From Phototrophicus methaneseepsis (GTDB lineage Bacteria > Chloroflexota > Anaerolineae > Aggregatilineales > Phototrophicaceae): a stretch of 64,000 bases of DNA. Location of the stretch: NCBI RefSeq assembly GCF_015500095.1, contig NZ_CP062983.1, positions 1,674,001 through 1,738,000 on the forward strand, read 5' to 3'. A program made the translations under genes and the position numbers. Of the stretch, positions 20,838-43,520 are shown in pieces; within the stretch, counting starts at the first letter, position 1, and each line of letters opens with the position of its first letter. The notes beneath the pieces were generated by a model. It was not told where the DNA came from and did not search any database. It saw only the letters and a program-made list of their open reading frames with translations.

Positions 20838-20858
20838 GGCCTGATCGCAACGAATTTA

Positions 20859-20888
20859 AGAAGCCATCAACACGATGGCTTCTTTTTG
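20859..20888 (+). terminator. rho-independent terminator of typA
   Basis: A perfect 10-bp stem (AGAAGCCATC with GATGGCTTCT, loop AACAC) runs into TTTTTGTTTC, 21 bases past the typA stop. Confidence 0.92.
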
Positions 20889-20982: not shown

Positions 20983-21011
20983 TTGTTATCGCTTGTGGCC
21001 GGGCGTAAAAT
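20983..21011 (+). promoter_or_regulatory. predicted promoter of the cysK-cysE transcript
   Basis: TTGTTA (20983-20988), a 17-base spacer and TAAAAT (21006-21011) make a good sigma-70-type promoter. Transcription would start near 21018, giving a leader of about 205 bases before cysK that includes the Cys-rich peptide and the terminator. Confidence 0.55.
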
Positions 21012-21053
21012 AGCTGCGTTGGATCATATTCATCGGAAATTCTTGGAATTCTC

Positions 21054-21134
21054 ATGCTGTTCTGCGCCTGCTGTCTCTGTATGTGTTGTGAAGACTCACC
21101 ACCCAACGGTTGTGGCGCGATGTTCGGTTACTGA
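21054..21134 (+). CDS. 26-residue poly-cysteine leader peptide
   Basis: The frame ATG (21054) to TGA (21132) encodes [12 protein letters not shown] followed by [14 protein letters not shown], with Cys at positions 4, 6, 7, 9, 11, 12 and 20. Seven Cys codons in 26 is far above background, and six fall in nine consecutive codons. TTGGA lies about 7 bases ahead as a modest ribosome site. It lies between the predicted promoter and an intrinsic terminator, upstream of cysteine synthesis genes, which is the layout of a transcription-attenuation leader. Poly-Cys leader peptides that control Cys genes are known in mycobacteria. The peptide itself probably has no function beyond being translated. Confidence 0.8.
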
Positions 21135-21190
21135 TCCGATCGCAGTATCCTTTGTTCATGAGACGAGCCACAAACGTGGCTCGTTTTTGT
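21099..21190 (+). promoter_or_regulatory. predicted cysteine-responsive transcription attenuator
   Basis: The terminator stem is ACGAGCCAC (21163-21171) with GTGGCTCGT (21176-21184), loop AAAC, followed by TTTTG. The 5' arm region CGAGCCACAA (21164-21173) can instead pair with TTGTGGCGCG (21110-21119) at 9 of 10 positions, an antiterminator. That segment can in turn pair weakly with CCAC at 21099-21102. A ribosome stalled on the Cys codons (21063-21089) would cover the CCAC and free the antiterminator, giving read-through when charged tRNA-Cys is scarce. A ribosome reaching the stop codon would partly cover the antiterminator and favour termination. Pairings are read by eye. Confidence 0.72.
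21163..21188 (+). terminator. leader terminator upstream of cysK
   Basis: A 9-bp perfect stem with a 4-base loop and a run of five T lies 29 bases after the leader peptide stop and 36 bases before the cysK start. Because it precedes the genes of its own transcript, it must be conditional. Confidence 0.88.
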
Positions 21191-21223
21191 TCTCGCTATA
21201 TTGTCCCTATAAGGAGTGTATGT

Positions 21224-22156
21224 ATGAAAATTGCAGATAACGTGACCCAGCTCGTTGGCAATACCCCGCTGGTTCGTCTGAATCGCATCGCAGAAGGCAG
21301 CCAGGCACAGATCGTTGCCAAACTGGAGTACTTTAACCCGGCGCACAGCGTCAAAGATCGCATCGGTGTAGCGATGATTGAAGCTGCTGAGCGTGATGGC
21401 CTCATCCATGAGAACACGCACATTGTCGAGCCGACCAGCGGCAACACAGGCATTGCCCTGGCGATGGTTTGCGCTCAGCGCGGTTACAAGCTGACGCTCA
21501 TCATGCCAGAGACGATGAGTAAGGAACGTCGTAAGTTGCTGCGCGCCTATGGGGCGAATCTGGTACTGACCCCTGGGCCTGGCGGTATGGGTGCTGCCAT
21601 TGCCAAAGCCAATGAAATGGCTGCTGAAGACCCTAAGGTGTGGATTCCACAGCAGTTCGAGAATCCGGCTAACCCGGATGTGCATCGTCGTACCACTGCT
21701 GAAGAAATCTGGAATGATACCGAAGGCGCCGTCGATTTTGTGGTGGCGGGCATCGGTACAGGTGGCACCATCACCGGCATTGGCGAAGTACTCAAGGCAC
21801 GTAAGCCGGAATTGAAGATGGTCGCTGTTGAGCCGGCTGGCTCAGCGATTCTTTCCGGCGGCGAGAAGGGACCCCATCCCATCCAGGGTATCGGCGCGGG
21901 CTTCGTTCCGGAAGTACTGAACACCCAGATTTACGATGAGATCGTCCGCGTAGAAGGGGAAGATGCCTTTGATACAGCGCGTCGTATGGCGACAGAAGAG
22001 GGCTTGCTTGTGGGTATTTCATCAGGCGCGGCGACATGGGCAGCCCTGCAGGTCGCTGCTCGCCCGGAAAATGCAGGTAAGCTGATCGTCGTGATTATCC
22101 CGTCCTTTGGCGAGCGCTACCTCTCCACGCCCTTGTACGCGCATTTGGAGGACTAA
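21224..22156 (+). CDS. cysK: cysteine synthase (O-acetylserine sulfhydrylase)
   Basis: A 310-residue PLP enzyme that joins O-acetylserine and sulfide to form L-cysteine. The PLP lysine lies in [11 protein letters not shown], the substrate loop is [10 protein letters not shown], and the cofactor phosphate loop is [10 protein letters not shown]. The length matches the CysK/CysM family. The ATG at 21224 has AAGGAG 7-12 bases upstream, and the protein then starts [20 protein letters not shown] as relatives do. cysE follows after 2 bases. Both are expected to be switched by the leader attenuator. Confidence 0.96.
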
Positions 22157-22158
22157 CT

Positions 22159-22833
22159 ATGTGGCGCTCGCTCCGTGAGGATGTCGCCTGTGTGTTCCAG
22201 CGTGATCCCGCTGCGCGTAGTCGGCTGGAAGTCATCCTGTTCTACCCAGGGCTGCATGCCATCTGGCTGCATCGCGTGGCGAACTGGCTGTGGCATCATC
22301 GCCTTCGCCTGTTAGGCCGTGGCCTATCGCAGTTCGCACGCTGGCTTACGGGCATTGAAATTCACCCTGGGGCGACACTGGGGCCGCGCCTGTTTATTGA
22401 TCACGGGATGGGCGTCGTCATTGGCGAAACTGCCGAAGTCGGTGCAGATGTAACGATCTATCATGGCGTTACCCTGGGCGGGGTGAGTCTCTCCCATGGT
22501 AAACGCCACCCGACGATTGAAGATAACGTCGTTATTGGCGCAGGTGCCAAAGTATTAGGAGCCATCACAGTGGGAGAAAACAGCCGCATCGGTGCGAACG
22601 CCGTTGTTGTCAAAGATGTCGAGCCGGAGGCCGTTGTTGTCGGTGTACCGGGCAAGGTCGTGAAGCGCAAGACGCACCCGATTGCGGTTGATTTACAGCA
22701 TGACCAACTGCCCGATGTGCTCTCTGATCGGATTGACTTGCTGCTAAGTCGCTTGCAGCGCGTAGAAGAACTGCTGCGCGATAATGAAGAAGCGGAAGAA
22801 GCTCAGGCCGCCCAGATCGACTACATGATCTAA
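22159..22833 (+). CDS. cysE: serine O-acetyltransferase
   Basis: A 224-residue enzyme that acetylates L-serine to O-acetylserine, the substrate of the neighbouring CysK. After a helical N-terminus ([19 protein letters not shown]) it has the left-handed beta-helix of hexapeptide repeats ([40 protein letters not shown]). The conserved catalytic His and the Asp before it are in [12 protein letters not shown]. It is of the shorter type found in Gram-positives and plants' bacterial relatives, not the longer enterobacterial form. It lies 2 bases after cysK, so synthase and acetyltransferase are made together and may form the cysteine synthase complex. A terminator follows. Confidence 0.95.
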
Positions 22834-43414: not shown

Positions 43415-43447
43415 GTGCGGGTTGGGCTGCTCGTTTAAAACAGCTTG

Positions 43448-43520
43448 TGGGCTGTACAGGACTCGAACCTGTAACCTCCTCGACGTCAACGAGGCGCTCT
43501 GCCAGTTGAGCTAACGGCCC
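43448..43520 (-). tRNA. tRNA-Val (anticodon GAC)
   Basis: A 73-base cloverleaf is read on the minus strand. The acceptor stem is GGGCCGT with ACAGCCC (one C-A mismatch at pair 5), the D arm is GCTCAACTGGCAGAGC, the anticodon stem is CCTCG with CGAGG around loop TTGACGT, and the T arm is ACAGG-TTCGAGT-CCTGT. The anticodon GAC reads Val codons GUC and GUU. The discriminator is A and the 3' CCA is not encoded. It stands alone, followed by a terminator. Confidence 0.95.

Follow-up and report, generated by a model that had tools for sequence, protein, structure and literature searches.

Which signal governs the transcription of cysK-cysE in Phototrophicus methaneseepsis, and does the short, Cys-rich reading frame ahead of these genes carry the means to read it? 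The question arises from a stretch of 64,000 nucleotides (hereafter "the window"), in which cysK, the gene for cysteine synthase A (21224-22156, plus strand; TIGR01139, 470 bits against a cut-off of 351), has a Shine-Dalgarno-like AAGGAG at 21211-21216 and is followed by cysE, the gene for serine O-acetyltransferase (22159-22833, plus strand; TIGR01172, 248 bits against a cut-off of 211). Between them and an upstream typA gene, which scores above its NCBIfam cut-off, there is an ATG-initiated, TGA-terminated frame of 26 codons on the plus strand (21054-21134), with Cys at codons 4, 6, 7, 9, 11, 12 and 20. The initial annotation, which had described seven Cys codons, six of them within nine codons, is thereby confirmed; the candidate regulatory cluster comprises codons 4-12 (21063-21089, plus strand). 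No strong Shine-Dalgarno sequence is obvious ahead of the leader ATG. A putative promoter, TTGTTA-17-TAAAAT (20983-21011, plus strand; 9 of 12 positions matching), is located approximately 43 nt upstream of the ATG and is at chance level, with one such site found and 1.0 expected; the scan that returned it left the hairpin at 21163-21184, discussed below, off its own list. The poly-Cys frames of mycobacteria are reportedly called leaderless in a title of 2020 by Canestrari, as cited elsewhere, whereas the putative promoter described here would leave approximately 35 nt ahead of the frame.

The density of the Cys run cannot by itself answer the question. Among 1,363,971 stop-free windows read in six frames over 852,659 bases (loci L018-L199), none contained at least six Cys in nine codons. 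However, six further sites with six Cys in nine codons (L201, L208, L209, L210, L213 and L214) were present among 60 loci of the own genome that had been fetched because of their Cys-codon patterns, and the density of the run in the window is hence not unique in this genome. The runs in L209 and L210 lie within long frames of the same strand (474 and 565 codons) and are read in a different frame, that of L210 being part of an ATG-started frame of 28 codons, while those in L213 and L214 are read in frame within open frames 279 and 199 codons long. Two pattern searches of the same genome were largely uninformative: TGYNNNTGYTGYNNNTGY gave 60 sites against 30 in a reversed control (30 loci read), and TGYTGYTGYTGY gave 115 sites (30 loci fetched), among which the leader of the cysM-like paralog described below (L293) was recognised. 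Since Cys runs are found out of frame within other genes, rarity alone is weak proof, and since the run is not unique, the evidence consists of its position before cysK and its conservation. A separate observation in this genome concerns G000:C1:1179226-1180536, where TGCTGTTGCTGC or a close variant recurs every ~93 bases across 1.3 kb, which suggests a tandem-repeat gene.

Downstream of the frame, ACGAGCCAC (segment 3; 21163-21171, plus strand) and GTGGCTCGT (segment 4; 21176-21184, plus strand) form the 5' and 3' arms of a predicted terminator hairpin of -16.8 kcal/mol, with a U-tract at 21184-21188 (plus strand) whose end is approximately 35 nt upstream of cysK; the intrinsic terminator claimed earlier between the leader and cysK-cysE is thus found again. 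The proposed alternative pairing of its 5' arm with the end of the leader turned out to be better than the 9 of 10 pairs first counted: ACGGTTGTGGCGCG (segment 2; 21106-21119, plus strand), contained in the end of the leader frame, is the best ungapped match in the leader and pairs with 21164-21177, i.e. the 5' arm plus loop, in 12 of 14 positions. Segment 2 also has the weaker upstream partner that had been suggested, namely GCGCC (segment 1; 21064-21068, plus strand), which can form only 5 bp with GGCGC at 21114-21118. The minimum free energy of 21054-21195 is -47.8 (z = -2.9), while for the longer region named for checking in the initial annotation, 21018-21223, z is only -1.6.

These elements very probably place cysK-cysE under ribosome-mediated transcription attenuation, with charged tRNA-Cys as the signal sensed, as judged from sequence and modelled folds. 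With ample Cys-tRNA, the ribosome would cross codons 4-12 fast, reach the tail of the leader and cover segment 2, whereupon the terminator at 21163-21184 would form and transcription would stop ahead of cysK. With scarce Cys-tRNA, it would stall in the Cys cluster and leave segment 2 free to pair with the 5' arm of the terminator as this arm leaves RNA polymerase, so that no terminator would form and cysK-cysE would be transcribed. While the leader, the predicted hairpin and the competing pairing are observed, together with their conservation described below, we infer that the leader is translated, that the ribosome stalls, that the outcome is decided kinetically and that the system responds to cysteine.

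The initial annotation named the loss of the Cys codons in relatives as a finding that would speak against such a switch. A search with CysK returned close homologues in 16 of 61 genomes, the own one included (kinship as assigned by the search tool). Leaving aside locus L017, where upstream sequence is absent, a Cys-rich short leader frame precedes 14 of the 15 close cysK loci, again including our own (the exception is L008); these frames start 159-217 nt upstream of cysK and include such examples as FACCPCCIHL, IFCMCSCES, TTCICSCCRV and QACACICLN. Locus L012, from the same order, is identical across 300 upstream bases to L040 (Aggregatilineales bacterium). A terminator-like hairpin with a T-tract is predicted for 29 of 31 Cys-rich leaders examined (not for L102 and L149). 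From these 31 we picked, after the terminator survey, a set of 17 window-type loci, comprising the 14 close leaders and L030, L098 and L099, which have at least three Cys and no GCGG (see below); L027 and L144, which also lack GCGG and have terminator-like hairpins, were omitted from the pairing and folding tests. In all 17, the T-tract hairpin begins 27-46 nt past the leader stop, the RNA between a ribosome at the last cluster Cys and the terminator measures 53-70 nt, and cysE follows within 1.2 kb after cysK, while the stem sequences differ. Only the Cys codons persist among the leaders, whose length, order and flanking residues vary freely. Within the order, the Cys codons thus persist together with cysK-cysE and a terminator at nearly the same spacing, the remainder of the peptide being variable, and the comparison did not refute the switch.

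Several observations on these genomes stand beside this comparison. The distribution of cysK-cysE is patchy: at E 1e-90 this CysK is absent from 31 of 36 family members searched, the genus mate included; a TIGR01136 match is present in 20 of 20 genomes picked by us. Several of the genomes are incomplete. In L004 and L006 a TACAAT, recognised by eye, precedes the leader ATG by six bases, and these leaders may be leaderless. T-box and SAM riboswitches are known RNA leaders in the control of sulfur amino acid genes; in contrast to them, the leader in the window matched no cis-regulatory family of Rfam at gathering score (tRNA was all that was found in the window, where a tRNA-Val with anticodon GAC is located at 43447-43520, minus strand), and sensing would proceed via codons in its frame. 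Among the loci of 13 relatives, the sole Rfam match was a SAM-I-IV riboswitch at L005:570-691, on the other (minus) strand, near the cysK locus.

How well the competing pairing would work as a switch depends on how it is modelled. In equilibrium folding of the window the terminator dominates at each ribosome position (0.83-0.97) and no switch is seen; among 15 loci computed, a clear drop near the last Cys is found only in L003, L015 and L016. As attenuation is a kinetic process, we turned from equilibrium folding to how often upstream RNA occupies the 5' arm at a stage when the 3' arm has yet to emerge. By this proxy, the 5' arm in the window is paired at 0.92 with the ribosome at every Cys of the cluster and at 0.63 with the ribosome at the stop. 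With the footprint at codon 1 it is paired at 0.91, as often as at the Cys cluster, which suggests that the 5-bp hairpin between segments 1 and 2 gives little protection and that untranslated RNA might read through. All 17 window-type loci show more pairing at the cluster than at the stop if the cluster maximum is taken, and 16 of 17 do so if the mean is taken (L007 fails), a comparison that is biased on its own, since a ribosome further along hides more RNA; shuffled spacers were therefore used as a control. The mean 5'-arm pairing over the 17 loci is 0.684, compared to 0.560 ± 0.035 in shuffles, and none of 200 shuffle sets reached it. Taken singly, L001, L011, L098 and L099 (4 of 17) exceed 95% of their shuffles, L007, L009, L014 and L030 do not exceed the shuffle mean, and in the window 4 of 200 shuffles pair the terminator 5' arm equally well. 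When arms were swapped between the 17 loci, native tail-arm pairs averaged -15.1 kcal/mol, against -13.6 ± 0.57 for permuted ones (113 of 20,000 permutations as good), the own arm ranking first only for L004 and L099 and several loci ranking poorly; this signal is moderate. The earlier statement that the locus displays the full logic of ribosome-mediated attenuation therefore stands as far as the Cys codons, the terminator and the alternative pairing at group level are concerned, and is slightly too strong in view of the equilibrium switch in only 3 of 15 loci, the 4 of 17 loci significant singly and the weak hairpin between segments 1 and 2.

The Cys signal extends far beyond the close relatives. 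We drew 396 genomes of the class, found CysK in 169 at E 1e-100 and fetched 80 further regions, arriving, together with a set of named contigs, at 187 non-redundant cysK upstream regions, of which 137 are from Chloroflexota and 50 are not (assigned by record title or kinship). A C-x-C motif in an ATG frame of 5-35 codons occurs at 66 of the 137 Chloroflexota loci, against 5.6 ± 2.6 in shuffles, and at 1 of 50 loci from other phyla; no amino acid but Cys is strongly enriched in the short frames upstream of Chloroflexota cysK (all others z <= 2.7). A sister architecture, TGY-NNN-TGY-N5-GCGG, was found at 64 of the 137 loci, against 0.7 (at most 2) in shuffles and 1 of 50 in other phyla, and the two sets jointly cover 81 of the 137. 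In 63 of the 64 GCGG-type loci a start codon lies in frame with the Cys pair, and in 59 of those 63 the frame does not exceed 40 codons (both counts without a control); the codon between the two Cys varies (15 codons), and the GCGG is in frame in 49 of 64 loci and overlaps or follows the stop in the other 15. With a variable middle codon and a GCGG on either side of the stop, conservation appears to act on the GCGG as RNA and on the Cys pair as codons. TGC serves as the first Cys codon in 57 of 64 loci and TGT as the second in 61 of 64 (loci within L020-L199), hence some RNA constraint may act there too. In 39 of 61 loci the tail that begins with GCGG has a downstream partner, mostly at a distance of 50-105 nt, with which it pairs better than shuffles do (z < -1.64), after L150, L158 and L160 had been dropped by eye as likely chance matches, and covarying pairings are exemplified by GCGGGGAGCG with CGCTTCCCCGC (one bulge) and GCGGGTTTC with GAAGCCCGC. 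Cys-codon leaders would accordingly come in two architectures, the Cys run of the window and the commoner GCGG type; cysE follows cysK in 57 of 61 GCGG-type loci with sufficient sequence.

Among other readings, the one that keeps the most probability, though a small one, is translation attenuation, in which stalling in the leader would alter access to the ribosome-binding site of cysK and the terminator would be secondary or not decisive. Precedent for it comes from mycobacteria, where poly-Cys leaders are reported to mediate cysteine-responsive attenuation, have no conserved terminator (Seliverstov 2005, PMC1262725) and are cited as translation attenuators (PMC13236596). These leaders resemble ours in that cysteine genes are preceded by a short frame with Cys-codon runs; they differ in that their Cys codons lie close to the stop, whereas the cluster in the window occupies codons 4-12, and in that a terminator is present in 17 of 17 Chloroflexota loci of the window type, for which we propose a terminator-based mechanism. 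The strong T-tract hairpin between leader and gene in all of these 17 loci argues against translation attenuation, as do the 49 of 63 GCGG-type loci in which a T-tract follows a terminator-like hairpin (10.0 in shuffles) and the position of the cysK Shine-Dalgarno sequence, which is downstream of the terminator and in the fold of the window takes part in a 3-bp local hairpin only, with no pairing to leader or terminator.

It is very improbable that the frame encodes a functional Cys-rich peptide (metal-binding, redox or a peptide precursor) that happens to precede cysK. Its high Cys content and the intact frame in relatives would suit such a role; against it, nothing except the Cys codons persists while length, order and flanks change, GCGG-type frames may be as short as about ten codons, with CICL at the end, the 26 residues of the window leader match no NCBIfam model, and the leader tail also serves as antiterminator strand.

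Transcription attenuation by Cys-codon leaders, the reading preferred here, also gains from the other cysteine synthase gene of the own genome (G000:C1:187686-188573), a cysM-like paralog (TIGR01138, 356 bits, below the model cut-off of 394) with the leader MAFNTQCCCCLETIR; the leader at the corresponding paralog of the genus mate is MAHYTQCCCCLETHR. As long as the ribosome sits at the last Cys and the terminator still lacks its 3' half, the tail GGTAGTCC of this leader pairs with GGACTACC in the terminator region; once the full terminator sequence is included, the minimum-energy fold is that of the terminator. In the shuffle test the own paralog tail reached a z of only -1.6, with a different best partner, and z < -1.64 was obtained for 5 of 14 paralog tails (for L239 the script selected another frame). 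By eye, a Cys leader is present in 15 of 20 cysM-like paralog loci (L239-L257 and L233) and was not seen at L242, L250, L252 (which has little upstream sequence), L255 and L233; the count leaves out L259 and three matches without a locus. Seven longer paralogs (488-516 codons), presumed cystathionine beta-synthases, showed no clear leader, with L237 and L238 as weak candidates.

A stricter pattern matched in 28 genomes out of 298 from the class. Thirty loci were read, and at 11 of these a short ATG-started leader of the GCGG type has the pattern in frame; the other 19 we took as chance matches. Four of the 11 precede cysK and four precede cysM-like genes (both judged by first residues); according to Pfam, one each precedes a rhodanese gene (L269), a gene for a PLP enzyme of Cys/Met metabolism (L286, start 393 nt on) and a DUF4395 gene (L261), which is followed by a frame that we read as putatively thioredoxin-like. 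The sulfur candidates of these families in the own genome (2 Cys/Met PLP, 11 rhodanese and 1 DUF4395 loci; 14 of 15 fetched, as L329 and L330 represent one gene) showed no convincing leader with at least three Cys, although weak Cys frames are found close to L326, L334 and L337; the script, which required three Cys in seven codons, would overlook leaders there with only two. An ATP-sulfurylase of PF01747 was not found in this genome. Outside the class, the GCGG motif was absent from 16 loci (from a 400-genome draw of the phylum), which only suggests that the GCGG leader is restricted to Anaerolineae. L354 has a weak Cys frame (MNCLRDCCHKT), and L350, L355, L357 and L358, from one related group of another class, share a TTG frame (MSCCG.CTSASCLAASW or a near variant) with three Cys close together approximately 430 nt before cysK, which may be part of another gene. 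Neither these weak frames nor the other Cys runs of the own genome touch the conservation evidence.

On this comparison, we consider it probable, with less assurance than for the window itself, that much of the Anaerolineae controls its cysteine regulon by undescribed transcription attenuators that sense tRNA-Cys. In their commoner form, two Cys codons would be followed, at a five-base spacing, by a GCGG that opens a long tail strand; this strand would pair with the 5' half of the terminator and be conserved as RNA both where it is coding (CxCLRRG) and where it lies across and after the stop (CICL-stop, TAG-CGG). The window would represent the Cys-run form, and the family would act before cysK-cysE, cysM-like, rhodanese, Cys/Met PLP enzyme and DUF4395 genes, both cysteine synthase loci found in the own genome having leaders. 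A constitutive partial terminator next to a chance Cys-rich frame, or a hairpin that belongs to typA, is highly improbable: the moderate group statistics of the alternative pairing and the similarly dense Cys runs in shifted frames elsewhere in the genome would fit chance, which nonetheless leaves unexplained the class-wide Cys enrichment, the near-constant spacing and the second leader before the paralog, and typA owns a separate terminator at 20858-20884.

The classical attenuators of the trp, his and leu type have a leader rich in codons for the operon's product, a terminator before the first structural gene and a mutually exclusive antiterminator that involves the leader. The locus in the window is like them in its Cys-codon leader, in the terminator before cysK and in the exclusive antiterminator pairing within the leader, and unlike them in the amino acid that it is proposed to sense, in its Chloroflexota host, in the location of the antiterminator strand inside the end of the leader frame and in the weak protecting hairpin between segments 1 and 2. 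The mechanism is of a known kind; what would be new is the combination of Cys sensing and an intrinsic terminator, together with the host phylum and a sister architecture of fixed CxC-GCGG form. A survey of 2010 describes leader-peptide attenuators as known from Proteobacteria and Actinobacteria only and adds Firmicutes (PMC2965389). Among the top matches (up to 20) of each literature search, no title or abstract opening named a Cys leader or any other leader-peptide attenuator for Chloroflexota, a weak negative over mostly open-access papers; the suggestion in the initial annotation that the system may be new in this lineage is not contradicted by it. The finding would extend amino-acid leader-peptide attenuation to Chloroflexota, in a Cys-specific version with an intrinsic terminator, and in a class sampled here largely as metagenome assemblies. 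It would also provide a concrete sequence signature for annotating cysteine control in genomes of Anaerolineae, and the occurrence of two architectures, and of two leaders in one genome, would make the evolution of the switch testable, i.e. whether leaders move with cysK-cysE or arise anew.
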